Positions 1 through 15,437 of a stretch of 25,559 nucleotides of DNA are shown here, one piece after another. The DNA comes from a virus. Where the stretch lies: positions 1 to 25,559 of the IMG/VR virus record IMGVR_UViG_3300006350_000018; one strand, written 5' to 3'. Below the pieces are notes generated by a model that was not told the DNA's origin, did not search any database, and saw only the letters and a list, made by a program, of their open reading frames with translations. The translations under genes were made by a program, and so were the position numbers. Position 1 is the first letter of the stretch. Each line of letters opens with the position of its first letter.

Positions 1-90
1 AATAAGGAATGGACGCCAGAGCATATAAATAAGTTAGTGATTAAAGTTAAATATAAACAAAAATTTTTCAACCAATTTGTGGGGCTGTAA
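1..90 (+). CDS. Possible 3' end of a plus-strand gene (partial)
   Basis: An open frame runs from the window edge for 29 codons to a TAA at 88-90. The residues (beginning [13 protein letters not shown]) look protein-like, with mixed charged and hydrophobic positions and many lysines. If real it converges on psbA and overlaps its last 23 bases. I do not recognise the family, and a 29-codon frame in AT-rich DNA can arise by chance. The stretch 1-67 otherwise shows nothing: no terminator hairpin is visible after psbA. Confidence 0.35.
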
Positions 91-1150
91 GTGCAACTTG
101 TGTTGACTCAGCAGAAGCCAAGTCAAGTGGGAAGTTGTGAGCATTACGCTCATGCATAACTTCAAATCCGAGGTTAGCTCTATTTAATACATCAGCCCAT
201 GTTGGAATAATCTTTCCGTTTGCATCAACAACTGACTGGTTGAAGTTGAAACCGTTAAGGTTAAATGCCATTGTGCAGATACCCATTGAAGTTAACCATA
301 CACAAACAACTGGGAATACAGCTAGGAAGAAGTGAAGACTTCTGCTGTTGTTGAATGAAGCATATTGGAAGATCAAACGACCGAAGTAGCCATGAGCTGC
401 AACGATGTTATATGTTTCTTCTTCTTGTCCGAACTTGTAACCATAGTTCTGAGACTCTGTCTCAGTTGTTTCTCTGATTAGAGAAGAAGTAACAAGTGAA
501 CCATGCATAGCTGAGAATAAAGATCCTCCGAACATACCAGCAACACCAGCCATATGGAATGGGTGCATAAGAATGTTGTGCTCTGCCTGGAAAACAAACA
601 TGAAGTTGAATGTTCCAGAGATACCTAGAGGCATTCCGTCAGAGAATGAACCTTGACCGAATGGGTATACAAGGAATACTGCGAAAGCTGCTGAAACTGG
701 TGCAGAGTATGCAACGCAGATCCAAGGACGCATACCTAAACGGTATGAAAGTTCCCACTGTCTTCCCATGTATGCTGAGATACCAATAAGGAAGTGGAAG
801 ATTACTAACTGGTAAGGACCACCGTTGTATAACCACTCGTCTACAGTGGCAGCTTCCCATATAGGGTAGAAGTGTAGTCCAATTGCGTTAGAACTAGGTA
901 CAACAGCACCAGAGATGATGTTGTTACCAAATAAAAGAGATCCTGCAACAGGTTCTCTGATCCCGTCAATATCAACGGGAGGTGCAGCGATGAATGCTAC
1001 GATAAAACAAGCAGCTGCAGTTAGAAGACATGGAATCATTAAGACACCAAACCAACCAACATATAAGCGATTGTTAGTGGAAGTAACCCACTCACAAAAC
1101 TCGTCCCATCCAGATAGCAGACCACCACGCTTGCGTGAAATAGTTGTCAT
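68..1150 (-). CDS. psbA: Photosystem II reaction centre D1 protein
   Basis: This encodes D1, the photosystem II core subunit that binds P680, pheophytin, QB and the Mn cluster in the thylakoid. The ATG at 1150 gives 360 residues starting [10 protein letters not shown]; an upstream in-frame start would add 33 residues unlike any D1. Numbering runs one ahead of the usual D1 numbering. Visible key residues are H119, Y162 (tyrosine Z), D171, E190 and H191, S265 in the QB pocket, H273, H333, E334, D343 and A345. The tail after A345 ([15 protein letters not shown]) is the normal C-terminal extension removed by CtpA. The GRQWEL motif carries Gln at the usual position 130, as in low-light D1 forms. 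Phage psbA replaces D1 lost during infection and is typical of cyanomyoviruses. It has its own promoter about 105-135 bases upstream. No intron is present. Confidence 0.98.
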
Positions 1151-1232: not shown

Positions 1233-1250
1233 AGTGAGGAAATCCTCACT
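1233..1250 (-). other. Hairpin at the 5' end of the psbA leader
   Basis: The sequence AGTGAGGAAATCCTCACT is a perfect inverted repeat: a 7-bp stem with a 4-base loop. On the minus strand the predicted transcription start (about 1249) falls at its first bases, so the psbA mRNA would begin with this stem-loop followed by a leader of about 80 bases. A 5'-terminal hairpin of this kind can protect mRNA or control translation. Its presence is seen directly; its role is inferred. Confidence 0.6.
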
Positions 1251-1255
1251 GTTAT

Positions 1256-1285
1256 ATTATATATGAAGAAATGTTACCTTGTCAA
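1256..1285 (-). promoter_or_regulatory. Sigma70-type promoter of psbA
   Basis: On the minus strand a perfect -35 box TTGACA (1285-1280) is followed after 18 bases by a perfect -10 box TATAAT (1261-1256). This lies in the gap between the 31-residue gene ending at 1341 and psbA. It matches host vegetative sigma factor consensus and explains independent early expression of psbA. Bases 1286-1340 hold nothing else I can identify. Confidence 0.85.
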
Positions 1286-1340: not shown

Positions 1341-1436
1341 CTATTGCTCATCTGCCATGTACATCATGGTCAAAAATAATGCCATTGACACTACTGTGCC
1401 ACTTAAACCCATGATTGTCCAGTCTACTACTGTCAT
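1341..1436 (-). CDS. 31-residue single-span membrane protein, unknown
   Basis: ATG at 1436 to TAG at 1341 encodes 31 residues beginning MTVVDWTIMGLSGTVVSMAL, with one hydrophobic segment at about residues 7-27 and a short acidic tail (ADEQ). The start lies one base after the stop of the 95-residue gene (TAAAATG), so translation is probably coupled. It is the last gene of the operon that begins with the Hlip genes. Size and shape resemble the tiny single-helix subunits of photosynthetic complexes, but it matches none that I recognise. Function unknown. Confidence 0.65.
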   Translation of the reverse strand: MTVVDWTIMGLSGTVVSMALFLTMMYMADEQ

Positions 1437-1437
1437 T

Positions 1438-1725
1438 TTACATACCCTGCCAGAATGTATCACCTACAGGTTGTAGGTTTCTTGAGAGGAAATATAATCC
1501 TAAGTTACATACGAACCAGTTGATGTTGACAACCCATGTCTCTCTCCATAGGTACTTCCTGTTTGTCTGTACAATATACATGTTTCTCTCATTCATTGTT
1601 GAGTCAACAGAAAGTGGTCTGAACTTTAAGTATTGCTCTAGTCCTAGTGCGATTATGAATCCAATAGCATAGATGTAGAATACGAAGTTAAGTAATGCTG
1701 ATGCTGATATTAATAGTGGAATCAT
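1438..1725 (-). CDS. 95-residue membrane protein, two hydrophobic segments
   Basis: Unrecognised protein. The first hydrophobic segment spans about residues 3-28 (rich in Leu, Ile, Phe) and a second, weaker one spans about 64-80. Between them lies a polar loop with NERN and TNRK. Trp and Tyr cluster near the membrane boundaries, and there is one Cys at 73. The ATG overlaps the upstream stop codon as ATGA, so it is coupled to the 123-residue gene. Membership of the Hlip-led operon next to psbA suggests a thylakoid or cytoplasmic membrane role during infection; this is inference from position only. Confidence 0.75.
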   Translation of the reverse strand: MIPLLISASALLNFVFYIYAIGFIIALGLEQYLKFRPLSVDSTMNERNMYIVQTNRKYLWRETWVVNINWFVCNLGLYFLSRNLQPVGDTFWQGM

Positions 1726-2093
1726 TTTATCTCTTGTAATTTTTGTACTGCTGTTGATGCTTGTATTGCGGGTACATCATTTAGACCATTGACATCAAAC
1801 CATGGTGCGTTCTCCCAATCAAATCCCTCGCCAAATGTATTGTCTGCCTGTTGTACATACCAATGACATTGTGCGTCAGGTATATCTACTGCACATACTG
1901 CCCAGTCATCTGTCCACTGTGGAACCTGTACATACAATACTGGTACATCGGCACGAGTAATTGTAGGAAATGCTAAAGACAATGATACCACAGATACTAT
2001 TGCCCAGAAAAATGTGGGTATGTATCTGACGCTCATTGGTCTTCTGTATACTTCCATGACATCATGGTAAGATTGTGACATGTAATCGCTCAT
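1722..2093 (-). CDS. 123-residue membrane-anchored protein, probable lumenal domain
   Basis: Unrecognised protein. A basic N-terminal part (RR at 17-18, R23) is followed by one hydrophobic segment at about 26-43 ending in TITRADVP. It could be an uncleaved anchor or a signal peptide cut after TRA. The remaining 75 residues are acidic and rich in Trp (six in all), with two cysteines (C67 and C76) that could form a disulfide if exported. Its ATG overlaps the stop of the 37-residue gene as TAATG, and its stop overlaps the next start as ATGA. It is the only gene of this operon with a sizeable soluble domain. Confidence 0.78.
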   Translation of the reverse strand: MSDYMSQSYHDVMEVYRRPMSVRYIPTFFWAIVSVVSLSLAFPTITRADVPVLYVQVPQWTDDWAVCAVDIPDAQCHWYVQQADNTFGEGFDWENAPWFDVNGLNDVPAIQASTAVQKLQEIK

Positions 2094-2206
2094 TAAATTA
2101 ATCCTAGTGATCCTGCTGTGATCCCTACTGCTAAGAATAGAGAGAATTCCAGTAGGGCATGTGCACCCACTGGAATATCTAGCAACCTAGTTTGTAACTG
2201 TATCAT
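2093..2206 (-). CDS. 37-residue single-span membrane protein, unknown
   Basis: ATG at 2206 to TAA at 2093 encodes 37 residues beginning MIQLQTRLLDIPVGAHALLE, with a hydrophobic helix at about 15-36 rich in Gly, Ala and Leu. Both ends overlap the neighbouring genes as TAATG, which strongly supports it as a real cistron despite its size. It does not match a named small photosystem subunit that I can recall. It was identified by hand translation of the gap between the 58- and 123-residue genes. Confidence 0.7.
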   Translation of the reverse strand: MIQLQTRLLDIPVGAHALLEFSLFLAVGITAGSLGLI

Positions 2207-2382
2207 TACGCTCCCTGATATACTGGGGTCATAACTCCACCTCCCTCATCATCATCGTCGTCATCATCGTCCCATGGAAGATCACCAAGCATGATGATAC
2301 TTGCCACAAACACACAGATGACTGGCATGAATGGGAACAGAAGTGTATTAACCCATGTGTTATAGTCTGCCTCTAATGGCAT
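2206..2382 (-). CDS. 58-residue membrane protein with oligo-aspartate tail
   Basis: The start is ATG 2382 (MPLEADYNTWVNTLLFPFMP), chosen because it overlaps the upstream stop as TAATG; a longer in-frame start would add 20 unlikely residues. One hydrophobic helix (about 12-32) is followed by LPW, eight consecutive aspartates written with both GAT and GAC, then EGGG and a short tail. Trp followed by an Asp run also occurs in the unrelated-looking 60-residue protein at 15091-15273. Function unknown; the acidic tail could bind cations or a basic partner. Confidence 0.75.
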   Translation of the reverse strand: MPLEADYNTWVNTLLFPFMPVICVFVASIIMLGDLPWDDDDDDDDEGGGVMTPVYQGA

Positions 2383-2474
2383 TATCCTAAACCTACTGCG
2401 TAAACTGGTAATCCAACTGTTGCTGTAAAACCTGTAACACATAAGAAAGTAATGAATGGTGCTATTTTTTTCAT
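2382..2474 (-). CDS. 30-residue hydrophobic peptide, unknown
   Basis: ATG at 2474 to TAA at 2382 encodes 30 residues beginning MKKIAPFITFLCVTGFTATV and ending VYAVGLG. Two lysines precede a single hydrophobic segment. It looks like a minimal single-helix membrane protein or a signal peptide with almost nothing after it. The start follows the third hli stop by one base (TAAAATG) and its own stop overlaps the next start as TAATG. I do not recognise it. Confidence 0.65.
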   Translation of the reverse strand: MKKIAPFITFLCVTGFTATVGLPVYAVGLG

Positions 2475-2475
2475 T

Positions 2476-2616
2476 TTATACGAAACCTGGTATAAGTTGT
2501 CCTGTTGTTAGGTAAGCACCAATCCCTGCAATGATGCCAAGCATTGCTAATCTACCGTTAAGTTTCTCAGCAACTACCTTTTGTGCTTCTATTTCCTTAT
2601 TGTTTGATGGGTACAT
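2476..2616 (-). CDS. hli: High-light-inducible protein (Hlip), 46 residues
   Basis: Single-helix chlorophyll-binding Hlip, which protects photosystem II and its assembly intermediates from excess light. The signature AEKLNGRLAMLG followed by a Gly/Ala-rich helix and TTGQLIPG is complete, including the Glu and Arg that pair two helices. The start is ATG 2616 (MYPSNNKEIEAQ), overlapping the preceding hli stop as TAATG. A longer in-frame reading runs back through the neighbouring hli gene and is not credible. Second and third hli genes in direct tandem suggest duplication. Confidence 0.93.
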   Translation of the reverse strand: MYPSNNKEIEAQKVVAEKLNGRLAMLGIIAGIGAYLTTGQLIPGFV

Positions 2617-2723
2617 TAGAAGATACCTGGTATGATATTTCCTGTAGTTGCGTATGCTCCTACTGCTGCAACGAATCCAATCATTGCTGCCCATCCATTA
2701 AATCTCTCTGCTTCTGGTGTCAT
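2616..2723 (-). CDS. hli: Minimal Hlip, 35 residues
   Basis: ATG at 2723 to TAA at 2616 encodes 35 residues beginning MTPEAERFNGWAAMIGFVAA and ending in TTGNIIPGIF, an Hlip reduced to little more than the chlorophyll-binding helix. A good ribosome site (AGAGGA) lies seven bases before the start. The Arg of the usual ExxNGR motif is replaced by Trp (NGW), removing one side of the Glu-Arg pair seen in the two sister genes. Such short forms occur in cyanophages and marine cyanobacteria. It overlaps the next hli gene by TAATG. Confidence 0.92.
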   Translation of the reverse strand: MTPEAERFNGWAAMIGFVAAVGAYATTGNIIPGIF

Positions 2724-2775
2724 GATAGTGTCCTCTTAAAAATAATAGTGCGTTAAATTTGTTAAATCGTAAGTC

Positions 2776-2976
2776 TTAAAATCCTGCTAGACCAAAGAAG
2801 AAAAAGTTCCCTGTGGTAGCGTAGGATATCACTCCTGCTACTAGTCCAAGCATTGCAAGTCTGCCATTAAGCTTTTCTGCATTAGGTCCATATCCCTCAT
2901 AGTTTTCTACAAGTTGTGGTCGCACCTCTGTTGGAAATGCATTTTGGCGTCCGCCACTCTCAGTTGTAACAGTCAT
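2776..2976 (-). CDS. hli: High-light-inducible protein (Hlip), 66 residues
   Basis: First gene of the operon. A polar N-terminal part of about 30 residues precedes the Hlip signature AEKLNGRLAMLG and the membrane helix, ending with a phenylalanine run and GLAGF. Hlips bind chlorophyll and carotenoid in the thylakoid and dissipate energy around photosystem II; phage copies are thought to keep photosynthesis running in infected cells. A strong sigma70-type promoter lies 29-57 bases upstream, so this operon should be expressed early. The gap 2724-2775 holds only the ribosome site of the next hli gene. Confidence 0.95.
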   Translation of the reverse strand: MTVTTESGGRQNAFPTEVRPQLVENYEGYGPNAEKLNGRLAMLGLVAGVISYATTGNFFFFGLAGF

Positions 2977-3004: not shown

Positions 3005-3033
3005 ACTATATAGCAAATGTTAAGTTTTGTCAA
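3005..3033 (-). promoter_or_regulatory. Sigma70-type promoter of the hli operon
   Basis: On the minus strand TTGACA (3033-3028) is followed after exactly 17 bases by TATAGT (3010-3005). It sits in the intergenic region 2977-3123, which fires minus-strand genes from this promoter and plus-strand genes from the late promoter at 3089. The predicted transcript starts near 2998, giving a leader of about 22 bases. Confidence 0.85.
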
Positions 3034-8054: not shown

Positions 8055-8650
8055 AATAATAATTTAGATTTAAATTTAGAGCTTGGTCTCATTGAATCAA
8101 TAAGATCATCTAATTTATCTGATAACACATAAGAAAAACCAATAGAAGTTCTGAGGTTATCAGTAAGAGAATTAGGAGAAGATCCATAATGATCCCAATT
8201 AGATGGAACTAATACACCACGATTCGGTATGTATGGAACGTAGTTATATTTATTAGTGTTTGTATTATAGCATACAAACTCACCACCCCACTCTGTATTC
8301 CATTTTAGGTTAGTGAAAAGTACGAATGTCCATACCCAAGGTTGTAAGAAATCCTTATGAAAAGGTGCTACTTGATTTGTAGTTTGTCCATTAACATGGA
8401 TCTTACAAAGTTGGATGGGGTTACGTATGTACTTTTGAATCTTTAACTTGATGTGAATTGCTGCATCATAGAAGGCAATTCTATCATGTTCATATTCAAA
8501 ACCCCAAGATAATTTATTGGAATCTTGATTAACATATTTAGGATTATAGGAATAATTAATTAAAGACCATCCACTAAAAAGTTCATCACGCAATGCAAGG
8601 AAATTCTTTGCGGGTAATACTTCATCATCAAATGAAATACAATCCTTCAT
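8051..8650 (-). CDS. 2-oxoglutarate/Fe(II)-dependent oxygenase
   Basis: Probable 2OG-Fe(II) dioxygenase of the prolyl-4-hydroxylase type, a family very common in cyanophages. The Fe(II) ligands are visible as H98-x-D100 (in PFHKDFLQPW) and H154 (in NWDHYGSSP), and R167 (LRTSIGFSYV) would bind 2-oxoglutarate. The core WTFVLFTN and WGGEFVCYN strands fit the double-stranded beta-helix. The 199-residue length is normal for the family. The substrate is unknown and could be a protein residue, a nucleobase or a metabolite. Start and stop overlap the neighbouring genes (TAATG and ATGA). Confidence 0.82.
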   Translation of the reverse strand: MKDCISFDDEVLPAKNFLALRDELFSGWSLINYSYNPKYVNQDSNKLSWGFEYEHDRIAFYDAAIHIKLKIQKYIRNPIQLCKIHVNGQTTNQVAPFHKDFLQPWVWTFVLFTNLKWNTEWGGEFVCYNTNTNKYNYVPYIPNRGVLVPSNWDHYGSSPNSLTDNLRTSIGFSYVLSDKLDDLIDSMRPSSKFKSKLLL

Positions 8651-8886
8651 TAGTCCTCATGGTCATCCCATTGATCGGTAAGACCTTCATTGTTAAAGAA
8701 TGCTCTGTATATACCAAACCCTGATAGTAATACTAAGATTACTAAGATTGATATACCAAAGGTGATGTTTGGATTTGCATTGTAATGTGGTATGATTGCA
8801 TTACATTTAGTCCATGTACCTGGTAGTGTATACACAGGTGGACAAGAGAGTAATAGATCTCTTATAGCTAACATTTCAGTTCCCAT
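8650..8886 (-). CDS. PsbN-like membrane protein with N-terminal extension
   Basis: The ATG at 8886 overlaps the upstream stop as TAATG; MLAIRD at 8874 is an alternative. The C-terminal half has one membrane helix followed by GFGIYRAF, then LTDQWDDHED at the end. This closely follows PsbN, whose helix is followed by TGFGVYxAFGPPS and ends L-x-DPF(D/E)(D/E)HED. PsbN is a thylakoid protein needed for assembly and repair of photosystem II reaction centres. The phage protein adds about 40 residues in front, including two cysteines, and lacks the GPPSK segment (here FNNEG). The assignment rests on this motif and the phage's other PSII genes (psbA, hli). It is transcribed with gp55, not with psbA. 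Confidence 0.6.
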   Translation of the reverse strand: MGTEMLAIRDLLLSCPPVYTLPGTWTKCNAIIPHYNANPNITFGISILVILVLLSGFGIYRAFFNNEGLTDQWDDHED

Positions 8887-9386
8887 TATTGTACCCAATT
8901 TGGTTTTCTGGATTCGTCACGAAGATAATTAGATGCAACCCAAGGTTTGCTGCTAATGTAATTCTTGTAAGCAGTAAAAGTGTCAATGCTTGTGTCATAT
9001 TTAAACTCATCTGGCATAGCTCTTGTAAATGATGTGGGTGGTGGGCAAGATGGAAACATAATATCAGCACACTCAATAGTATGCTGACAACTATGGACTT
9101 TGTTATATCTATGAGTATACTCTGCACATAGTGCAAGACCATGTTCTATTAACCAATAGAAGTTAGTCTGTGCCCAGATAGTACAAGGATGATTACGAAA
9201 TGCACCTTTGTCTGTTTTGTATGGTTCGCCATTAAGTTTAGGTAATGTGCCAAAACCATGACCCCACTTCTCTGATGCAACAATAGATAACATTTGACAT
9301 GTCTCTAGTGGCATCTTGACAATATGCTTATCAGGTAGCACCTGTGCAGATTTATAGGGTGATGGGTCAGTTACAAAAATATTCAT
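8886..9386 (-). CDS. Conserved phage protein, paralogue A (166 residues)
   Basis: The start at ATG 9386 (MNIFVTDPSP) overlaps the upstream stop as ATGA and matches the start of the paralogue at 10672-11187. Shared blocks are VTDP...KSAQVLPDKHIVKMPLE, TCQMLSIVAS, KTDKGAFRNHPCTIWAQ, HGLAL, EYTHRY and KVHS, and a C-terminal FKYDTSID and KPWVA-NYLRD. Proteins starting MNIFVxDxDP with DKH are widespread in T4-like phages with no function I can name. The order DKH near the start, then HPCT followed by an aromatic-rich helix, loosely resembles T4 endonuclease V, but this is weak. Conserved His, Cys and Trp residues suggest an enzyme or metal site. Confidence 0.82.
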   Translation of the reverse strand: MNIFVTDPSPYKSAQVLPDKHIVKMPLETCQMLSIVASEKWGHGFGTLPKLNGEPYKTDKGAFRNHPCTIWAQTNFYWLIEHGLALCAEYTHRYNKVHSCQHTIECADIMFPSCPPPTSFTRAMPDEFKYDTSIDTFTAYKNYISSKPWVASNYLRDESRKPNWVQ

Positions 9387-9847
9387 TCGGATGCTCGCCA
9401 TTCTTTCCTCATTCTAACATAATCTGCACTTTTGGCAACTATGTCCCGAACCTTCTTAAACACTTTAGCTGATTGAGCATATTTACTCGTTGCATGATCT
9501 GGTTCTTGTGGTAGTATTTCTTTTGTACCTTGTTTGTACTTCCTACCTGTATTGTGATTAGCATAACGTCTTGCTCTAGTAAATCCCATTTCAAGGAACT
9601 TACGACACATATCCATACCAATAAAATCTCTCTGATCACGATAGTCTAAGTACATATCATAAATGTGATTAGATGATTTTACTGCAATCTCTGGTGTCTT
9701 AAATCTCCAATGATTACATATAGTGTTAGTATAAGGGCGAACCAGTAGAACTCCTTGCTCTCCCCTTCCAATACGATAAAGTTTGCGAGTTTCCTCGTCT
9801 GTAAAATCAAGTTCTTTATAGTTGAGGTCATAATCAAATTCTTTCAT
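9383..9847 (-). CDS. DUF4385-type conserved cyanophage protein
   Basis: Encodes 154 residues with the features I associate with DUF4385: an N-terminal FDYDLNYKELDF, then LYRIGRGEQGVLLVRPY, HWRFKTPEIA, and the block FIGMDMCRKFLEMGFTRARRYANH followed by a Lys-rich C-terminal part. It is common in cyanophages and some bacteria and its biochemical role is unknown. Many Arg and Lys residues in the C-terminal half would suit nucleic-acid binding. Both ends overlap neighbours as ATGA. Confidence 0.8.
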   Translation of the reverse strand: MKEFDYDLNYKELDFTDEETRKLYRIGRGEQGVLLVRPYTNTICNHWRFKTPEIAVKSSNHIYDMYLDYRDQRDFIGMDMCRKFLEMGFTRARRYANHNTGRKYKQGTKEILPQEPDHATSKYAQSAKVFKKVRDIVAKSADYVRMRKEWRASE

Positions 9848-10514: not shown

Positions 10515-10675
10515 GGTAGTTCTATTTGTCTACACACCAAATACTCTCTGGCAGTTTTACATGAGAACGCTTTGTCTCTGTTGAGTCTTGCCAATAAAAA
10601 AGTTATTGAAATAAGTTGGATTACTATGACAAGTGGTATTCCTACTTTTAATAATGTTTTTGCTTTGTTAGTCAT
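10511..10675 (-). CDS. 54-residue single-span membrane protein
   Basis: ATG at 10675 to TGA at 10511, found by hand translation. The protein begins MTNKAKTLLKVGIPLVIVIQ and has one hydrophobic helix at about 8-28, then a basic region with two cysteines (FSCKTAREYLVC). It overlaps both neighbours as ATGA, filling the gap between paralogue B and the 65-residue gene exactly. Unrecognised. Confidence 0.72.
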   Translation of the reverse strand: MTNKAKTLLKVGIPLVIVIQLISITFLLARLNRDKAFSCKTAREYLVCRQIELP

Positions 10676-11187
10676 ATCCATTCTGGTTTGCGTGATGGGT
10701 CACGAAGATAGTTAGTAGCAACCCAAGGTTTAGATGCAATGTAGCGTTTGTATGCAGTGAAGATGTCAATACTTGTATCGTACTTGAACTCGTCAGGACC
10801 TGCAAATACAAACATGTCAGAATGCTCTCTGATATGTCTGATGTATTGAAATGGAAAAATCTTTTCTGCATGTAGAATAGTAGATTCACAACTATGAACC
10901 TTACCATACCTGTGTGTATACTCTTTACACAATGCTAGACCATGACGTATTAACCACGACCAATTCTGTTGTGCCCAGATAGTACAAGGATGATTGCGGA
11001 ACGCACCCTTGTCTGTTTTGTATGGTGTACCATCTAACTTAGGTAACTCGCCAATACCATGACCCCACTTCTTAGATGCTACGATAGATAACATCTGACA
11101 TGTCTCTAGTGGCATCTTGACAATATGTTTGTCAGGTAATACTTGTGCTGACTTGATAGGATCAGGGTCAGTAACAAAAATGTTCAT
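10672..11187 (-). CDS. Conserved phage protein, paralogue B (171 residues)
   Basis: Paralogue of the gene at 8886-9386 with the same start (MNIFVTDPDPIKSAQVLPDK) and the same series of conserved blocks: HIVKMPLETCQML, KTDKGAFRNHPCTIWAQ, HGLALCKEYTHRYGKVHSCE and FKYDTSID. The least similar part lies at about residues 103-130 (FPFQYIRHIREHSDMF here, a Pro/Ser/Thr-rich stretch in copy A), perhaps a specificity loop. DNA identity between the copies is visibly high, so duplication is fairly recent or maintained by conversion. Four other genes separate the copies. The start overlaps the upstream stop as ATGA. Confidence 0.85.
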   Translation of the reverse strand: MNIFVTDPDPIKSAQVLPDKHIVKMPLETCQMLSIVASKKWGHGIGELPKLDGTPYKTDKGAFRNHPCTIWAQQNWSWLIRHGLALCKEYTHRYGKVHSCESTILHAEKIFPFQYIRHIREHSDMFVFAGPDEFKYDTSIDIFTAYKRYIASKPWVATNYLRDPSRKPEWI

Positions 11188-15090: not shown

Positions 15091-15273
15091 TTATTTAGTG
15101 TACCACCAGTAAGGACCTTCGCCAGGACCTCCTGTATAATCATCGTCATCATCATCCCACGTAATATTAATGTTTGGTGGTCTTCTTTTCTTCCAAGTCT
15201 TTACTGTAATAATTGTAGCAACTGTTGCAGCAGATACTATGGGTGAAGCAAAGAGTAGTATCTTTTGTAACAT
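15091..15273 (-). CDS. 60-residue membrane protein with WD(6) tail
   Basis: The start is ATG 15273 because it overlaps the upstream stop as TGATG and has GGAG close before it; a TTG at 15282 is also in frame. One hydrophobic segment (about 3-24), a basic KTWKKRRPP, then INITW followed by six aspartates and a Gly/Tyr/Trp-rich end (GPYWWYTK). The Trp-Asp run recalls the tail of the 58-residue protein at 2206-2382. It is unrecognised and lies within the head/tail gene region, so it may be a minor virion or membrane assembly protein. Confidence 0.7.
   Translation of the reverse strand: MLQKILLFASPIVSAATVATIITVKTWKKRRPPNINITWDDDDDDYTGGPGEGPYWWYTK
15092..15098 (-). promoter_or_regulatory. Late promoter CTAAATA of gp3
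   Basis: The minus-strand CTAAATAAT core overlaps the end of the 60-residue gene and lies 20 bases before the gp3 ATG at 15071. A second copy (15308-15314) lies 34 bases before the 60-residue gene. Confidence 0.65.
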
Positions 15274-15437
15274 CAGCTCCAATATTCGTCTAATATGTCC
15301 AGTACATTATTTAGTATCATCTGTGCAGCTGCCCTTTCGTTTTCATCCCAATGTGGATACCATTGATGTTTATGTAATCCGTCTTTCATACGCATTATCT
15401 TCGCAGTCATTTGCACTTTATCTAATCTACCATTCAT
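15273..15437 (-). CDS. 54-residue conserved-looking helical protein
   Basis: ATG at 15437 to TGA at 15273, found by hand translation of the region after the gp23 terminator. The protein begins MNGRLDKVQMTAKIMRMKDG, then has HKHQWYPHWDENERAAAQMI and a Leu/Ile-rich helix ending DEYWS. It is soluble and mostly helical. Its stop overlaps the next start as TGATG. A TATAAT-like sequence at 15463-15458 could be a weak -10 for this gene. Function unknown. Confidence 0.7.
   Translation of the reverse strand: MNGRLDKVQMTAKIMRMKDGLHKHQWYPHWDENERAAAQMILNNVLDILDEYWS
15308..15314 (-). promoter_or_regulatory. Possible late promoter CTAAATA of the 60-residue gene
   Basis: Minus-strand CTAAATAAT lies inside the 54-residue gene, 34 bases before the ATG at 15273. 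The spacing is like the other late promoters here, but it is within coding sequence. Confidence 0.45.

Follow-up and report, generated by a model that had tools for sequence, protein, structure and literature searches.

A small-gene hli cassette beside psbA in a T4-like cyanophage and its counterpart in Prochlorococcus chromosomes

Organization and conservation of the cassette

The window, the whole stretch of viral DNA analysed here, is a record of 25,559 bases and is a fragment of a T4-like cyanophage near P-HM1 and P-HM2. These two phages are the nearest annotated relatives for the first 4.2 kb, with a DNA identity of about 78-79% over 76-80%. The first-pass annotation had placed nine small genes between positions 2976 and 1341 of the minus strand, three for high-light-inducible proteins (Hlips) and six for proteins of 30, 58, 37, 123, 95 and 31 residues, and all nine frames were confirmed there with these lengths. 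Leftwards from 2976 the order is hli66, hli35, hli46, p30, p58, p37, p123, p95 and p31, and psbA is the downstream neighbour, as had been described (Table 1). One-base overlaps of the type TAATG connect hli35 with hli46, p30 with p58, p58 with p37 and p37 with p123; p123 and p95 overlap by four bases (ATGA), and the spacing of hli46/p30 and p95/p31 is one base. The tight coupling proposed for all nine genes holds for eight, but not for hli66, which is separated from hli35 by 52 bp.

Table 1. Genes and predicted promoters of the cassette region and the PsbN-like gene of the window.
Feature	Positions	Strand	Match or basis
psbA (PSII D1), next gene after the cassette	68..1150	-	
Sigma70-type promoter TTGACA-18-TATAAT ahead of psbA	1256..1285	-	predicted; consensus scan, 12/12
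p31, one-span 31-aa peptide	1341..1436	-	
p95, T4-GC285, two-helix membrane hairpin (modelled)	1438..1725	-	PHROG 10609, E=1e-48
p123, T4-GC438, mis-named carboxylesterase	1722..2093	-	PHROG 14182, E=2e-48; PHROG 1187, E=6e-32
p37, one TM span, invariant E-F and G...AG..G	2093..2206	-	PHROG 17067, E=2e-10
p58, T4-GC437 family, 'type B'	2206..2382	-	PHROG 7843, E=3e-21
p30, 30-aa hydrophobic peptide, motif TGFTATxGLPV	2382..2474	-	
hli46, Hlip, 46 aa	2476..2616	-	PHROG 20629, E=5e-25
hli35, Hlip, 35 aa	2616..2723	-	PHROG 178, E=2e-19
hli66, high-light-inducible protein, 66 aa	2776..2976	-	PHROG 178, E=7e-24; motif EKLNGRLAMLG
Sigma70-type promoter TTGACA-17-TATAGT of the hli cassette	3005..3033	-	predicted; consensus scan, 11/12
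PsbN-like protein ending in DHED (T4-GC163)	8650-8880	-	PF02468, E 2e-7

The near-perfect sigma70 promoter reported for the cassette was found again, 29 bp ahead of hli66. Shuffled sequence of 25.5 kb contains 0-4 matches of 11/12, so that the position of this promoter weighs more than its rarity. The psbA gene has a 12/12 promoter of its own and therefore need not rely on the cassette transcript. A few bases past the -10 box of the psbA promoter lies a perfect 7-bp inverted repeat (AGTGAGGATTTCCTCACT, 1233-1250, minus strand), so that the psbA mRNA probably starts with a 5' hairpin. Terminator-like sites in the window were no more frequent than expected by chance. Early timing of the transcript, as anticipated in the first pass, does not agree with the published expression classes: during infection with P-HM2, hli and psbA are middle and not early genes and are strongly light-dependent, and the hli genes of the host respond to infection in the light with induction (PMC5082946).

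Hlips were assigned by the ExxNGRxAMxG-type motif of the chlorophyll-binding helix in combination with a family profile. The three products P0007-P0009 match PHROG 178 or 20629 with E<=2e-19 (P0008 with NGWAAM) and belong with the high-light-inducible proteins of cyanophages and cyanobacteria, whereas the other six are not Hlips. The Pfam profile Chloroa_b-bind scored under the cut-off on the cassette Hlips. The non-Hlip proteins gave no convincing match to Pfam, NCBIfam or PDB profiles, and the PHROG families matched by p95, p123, p58 and p37 are all of unknown function, save for an 'esterase' label on PHROG 14182. A literature search on membrane micro-genes found nothing.

Homologues in dozens of contigs keep the gene order and the sequence, and the median pairwise dN/dS was 0.137 for p95, 0.195 for p123, 0.264 for p58 and 0.467 for p37, rough figures because synonymous sites are near saturation. 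With order and sequence kept and dN/dS low (0.14-0.47), these ORFs do not arise by chance, and the four unknowns are real conserved families under protein-level selection. For p31 and p30, selection could not be assessed in this way owing to their small size and rarity, with three distinct sequences each among close relatives. As proposed, the unknowns are one- or two-span membrane proteins by prediction: each has one TM-like segment, and p95 is modelled as a two-helix hairpin. Their description as unrecognised has to be given up for p95, which is T4-GC285, and for p58, p37, p123 and probably p30, which have relatives in Prochlorococcus chromosomes.

The design of p58 comprises one TM span, a poly-Asp stretch and a C-terminal GGGxMxPVYQGA. 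As whole proteins, p30 and p31 have close relatives only; PHM2_207 looks similar to p31 by eye. A TGFTATxGLPV tail like that of p30 is fused to the N-terminal module of p123 in P-RSM4, and a p30-like peptide was found 1.1 kb from one host cassette (L318), the host-chromosome relatives of p30 being weak matches to a short motif. Elsewhere in the window (15091-15282, minus strand) a small one-span protein with poly-Asp (WDDDDDDYTGGPGEGPYWWYTK) has a p58-like design and no family match.

A Hlip cassette common to phages and Prochlorococcus

Profile searches with p58, p37 and p95 covered 150 genomes of the picocyanobacterial order. Proteins like p58 were present in 148 of them, with strong matches (1e-16 to 1e-24) only in genomes of 1.5-2.0 Mb, the size of Prochlorococcus; the remaining matches, near 1e-5, depend mostly on the acidic tail, and low complexity may be their cause. 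Further host proteins (L304:7354-7530, L320-L322) combine a TM span and poly-Asp with GG(G)xxxPxxQG/MMMR tails, and weak hits in genomes of Synechococcus size point to a broader family with acidic tails. The p37 family was detected in 56 of the 150 genomes, all of Prochlorococcus size. In 11 genomes p58 and p37 adjoin directly behind hli in the order hli35-hli46-p58-p37, usually continuing after p37 with a 42-aa Hlip, and a twelfth genome has hli-p58 with no p37 detected.

The window shares with these chromosomal loci (L293-L295, L311-L319) the order hli35, hli46, p58, p37 and the TAATG junctions that were inspected; in the L316 cassette, hli35/hli46 and hli46/p58 are joined by the same type of overlap as in the phage. 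Protein identities between the window and L316 are 89% for hli35, 67% for hli46, 68% for p58 and 43% for p37. Unlike the window, where p30 is inserted between hli46 and p58, the chromosomal cassette is without internal p30, p123 and p95, and it carries the extra 42-aa Hlip. Another copy of p58 lies directly upstream of PTOX in low-light-type Prochlorococcus genomes of about 1.9 Mb (L290, L291/L304, L325-L329). Integration of the host cassettes at tRNA genes was unsupported, as a tRNA, taken as an island landmark, was found at only 1 of 12 loci.

In a tree of concatenated hli, p58 and p37 from 59 distinct cassettes, midpoint-rooted and with weak deep nodes, ten host cassettes formed one clade (UFBoot 100). 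This clade was sister to the window (L004) and its two nearest relatives (UFBoot 99), followed by S-SSM4 (100). By collinearity of hli-p58-p37 on both sides and by the common clade, the hli cassette is shared between phage and host. With weak deep nodes and midpoint rooting, the tree makes a transfer of the cassette from phage to host likely, short of proof. The common gene order suggests that a small set of light-protection genes is exchanged between the virus and Prochlorococcus, the most abundant photosynthetic microbe of the ocean.

Part of this picture had been published. The hli-GC437-GC438-GC285-psbA region of P-HM1/P-HM2 and P-SSM4 (Sullivan 2010, PMC3037559) contains the same families in the same order by psbA. 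The window differs from these regions in its type-B p58 and separate p30, it lacks the DoxX and heme oxygenase insertion of P-HM2, and it is nearer to the host cassette. According to the accessible part of Steglich 2008 (PMC2518516), the small MED4 ORF PMED4_15491 is homologous to PSSM4_181 and common to MED4 and two cyanophages; since PSSM4_181 is a member of the p58 family, PMED4_15491 is a host member of this family. That part of the report deals with one small ORF near island 5 and describes no hli-p58-p37 cassette or PTOX neighbour. Phage hli-psbA regions, most of the gene clusters and, since 2008, one phage-host pair (p58) are therefore already known. Within a mainly open-access literature we found nothing earlier on a cassette of four genes that is collinear between phage and host, on the sister relation of the window lineage to the host cassette, on the p58-PTOX neighbourhood or on T4-GC438 as a picocyanobacterial exported domain.

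The p123 and p95 families

The p123 protein consists of a phage-specific N-module (YHDVMEVYxRPMSVRYIP), a signal/TM segment and a Trp-rich domain that is common to picocyanobacteria and has the invariant residues C67 and C76-H77-W78-Y79. The Trp-rich domain with two cysteines mentioned in the first-pass annotation is thus present, and it is conserved as C-x8-CH; the last 70 residues follow the pattern WVQVPQWxDDWxxCAVDxPDxxCHWY...DNTxGxGFxW..APW. The N-module was found in none of 101 host genomes, in a search run without a positive control. As a short protein, the domain occurs in 211 of 299 picocyanobacterial genomes, often in two copies in genomes of 1.4-1.8 Mb, and one host copy adjoins pheT. 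In the host copy L168 the domain follows a textbook signal peptide (FPTFSLA/YDQNP, judged by eye), which makes a periplasmic or lumenal location probable; in most other host copies only a short hydrophobic N-terminus is present.

A tree of p123 placed a 47-sequence phage clade with the window (0.98) among Prochlorococcus copies (placement 0.75-0.85) and a second phage clade near Synechococcus copies, so that phages acquired the domain at least two times. With a host homologue and with phage sequences nested among those of the host, p123 qualifies as a phage auxiliary metabolic gene of host origin. The annotation as carboxylesterase or esterase was ruled out by the lack of GxSxG, of any serine among the 31 invariant residues and of a Pfam or NCBIfam match. 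A 'PsaX' annotation was likewise rejected, as it belongs to the neighbouring frame in S-SCSM2R. The AlphaFold2 model of p123 was unusable (pLDDT 55, pTM 0.24).

The model of p95 is a helical hairpin (pLDDT 84) whose loop carries positive charge and, by the positive-inside rule, would face the cytoplasm. A Foldseek search with this model against the PDB returned generic helical hairpins only (best E 0.26). Identity to the homologues in P-HM1/2, P-SSM2, P-SSM4, P-RSM4 and other phages ranges from 38 to 88%, and the only named Synechococcus-isolated phage with p95 is S-TIM4, which is near-identical to P-RSM4. Both this homology and the restriction to Prochlorococcus T4-like phages identify p95 as T4-GC285. 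Two genes, T4-GC285 and the PsbN-like T4-GC163, have been reported to occur in every T4-like phage isolated on Prochlorococcus and in no other phages (PMC3037559), and the window has both. Two similar 171-aa proteins (MNIFVTDP...KSAQVLPDKHIVKMPLETCQMLS) are encoded on the minus strand of the window at 8886-9401 and 10672-11187, about 1.3 kb apart, a recent-looking duplication.

The p95 profile matched none of the 150 host chromosomes. The search itself works, as it hit a phage contig in one single-cell genome, which served as positive control. This contig, QCLS01000003.1 (189 kb; L167, L247, L248), carries hli-p123-p95 and is binned into the Prochlorococcus genome AG-418-C09; it reflects either an infected cell or contamination of the species genome set. 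In other phages a different one-span peptide, of 34-36 aa and ending in YYIxRYDxYxP, precedes p95 in coupled frames (L119:1052-1159, L121:1260-1364, L123:4897-5001, L164:2915-3025).

Gene neighbourhoods and proposed role

Linkage was scored in distinct contexts that extend 2.5 kb or more to either side, using hli, psbA, PTOX, psbN, DoxX and heme oxygenase as photosynthesis-type genes. Such a gene lay within 2.5 kb in 20 of 22 contexts of p123 and in 14 of 19 of p95 (none near in 5 of 19), in loci collected by similarity and hence not sampled independently, compared with about 10% expected for a random site as estimated from gene positions in two long phage records and the hli-psbA region. These counts support the association with photosynthesis proposed for the unknowns. 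Their conserved linkage to hli holds in most lineages, but p123 and p95 also occur apart from hli, where they sit by PTOX, psbN, DoxX or heme oxygenase, and p95 also by gp17. Direct neighbours of PTOX are p123 in L040, L058 and L079 and p95 in L119, L120 and L123-L125, and p95 adjoins psbN in L136 and L148. The unit hli-p58-p37 was found in 71 of 90 phage p58 loci, a redundant set, and in 10-11 host genomes. The idea that the whole set forms subunits of one complex found no support: only hli-p58-p37 is fixed, p123 and p95 move independently, and co-occurrence in a fixed set was seen neither for p95 and p123 nor for p31 and p30. Between p95 or psbD and genes of the p123 family, a DoxX/DoxD-like membrane protein (TQO small subunit; L001:5539-5913, L161:2526-2936) recurs in Prochlorococcus and Synechococcus phages, and is a possible quinone-linked partner.

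It is established that Hlips, which bind chlorophyll as well as carotenoid, protect the repair of PSII, that PTOX takes electrons out of plastoquinol and that phage psbA supplies D1. With moderate confidence, we read the nine genes as a photoprotection-type (PSII/plastoquinone) auxiliary cassette of a Prochlorococcus-infecting T4-like phage, made partly from host-shared micro-genes. The front half hli35-hli46-p58-p37 is the unit common to phage and Prochlorococcus chromosomes, to which the back half adds the phage-only two-helix membrane protein p95 and p123, in which the exported Trp-rich domain of the host is joined to an N-terminus and membrane segment made by the phage. Gene reality, order, host sharing, protein-level selection and linkage to hli, PTOX, PsbN and DoxX have been demonstrated, and the location, partners and biochemical role that follow are proposals. 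During infection the cassette peptides would enter the thylakoid, where the Hlips may bind pigment on intermediates of PSII repair or assembly with p58 and p37 as putative one-span helpers, while the p123 domain would act on the lumenal side and p95 may adapt the set to Prochlorococcus photosystems. The set would then limit photodamage and keep the plastoquinone pool from becoming over-reduced, as new D1 is made from phage psbA. A bolder form of this reading, which we consider doubtful, takes hli, p58 and p37 to encode an as yet undescribed Hlip-helper complex in the thylakoid of Prochlorococcus, spread between hosts by phages, which the lumenal Trp-rich domain of p123 (C-x8-CH) and the phage-only p95 would extend into a virus-specific regulator of PSII repair and the plastoquinone pool.

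Association in the genome does not tell a working complex apart from co-timed cargo, that is, small host-derived and phage genes that pile up where expression is strong in the light and share the promoter and the psbA 'hot-spot', a term used for this region by Sullivan 2010 (PMC3037559), but no function. The independent movement of p123 and p95, the presence of p95 beside gp17 and other non-photosynthetic genes, and shuffled modules such as the P-RSM4 fusion all agree with cargo; we nevertheless regard it as somewhat unlikely, given that the order hli-p58-p37 is kept across diverse phages and host chromosomes and that three unrelated families (p58, p123, p95) each recur by hli and PTOX.

It is also conceivable, if quite improbable, that only hli-p58-p37 is photoprotective and that p95 (and p31) shares the transcript but serves a phage-specific membrane function such as superinfection exclusion or lysis timing. 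T4 Imm, a small two-span superinfection-exclusion protein, resembles p95 in size and topology only, and p95 is phage-only, two-span, mobile and, according to the published report, present in all T4-like phages of Prochlorococcus and only there; on the other hand, p95 recurs by psbN, PTOX, heme oxygenase and hli, and its sequence connects it to no protein of exclusion or lysis. An origin of the small frames in annotation noise or ORF decay could be argued from the very short and rare p31 and p30, but this is refuted for p58, p37, p123 and p95, four families with dN/dS well under 1, conserved order and overlaps and existing host homologues, and we see hardly any chance for it in general.

That cyanophages carry psbA and hli is familiar; at issue are the role of the 'hypothetical' micro-genes between them and the universality of GC285. 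The unit exchanged is probably a multi-gene Hlip cassette that is present in host chromosomes too, and genes long labelled 'hypothetical' or wrongly 'esterase' become testable. Exchange of the cassette may explain part of the many hli genes of Prochlorococcus chromosomes, and the cassette and the misnamed T4-GC438 are concrete targets for the biology of light stress in both phage and host.
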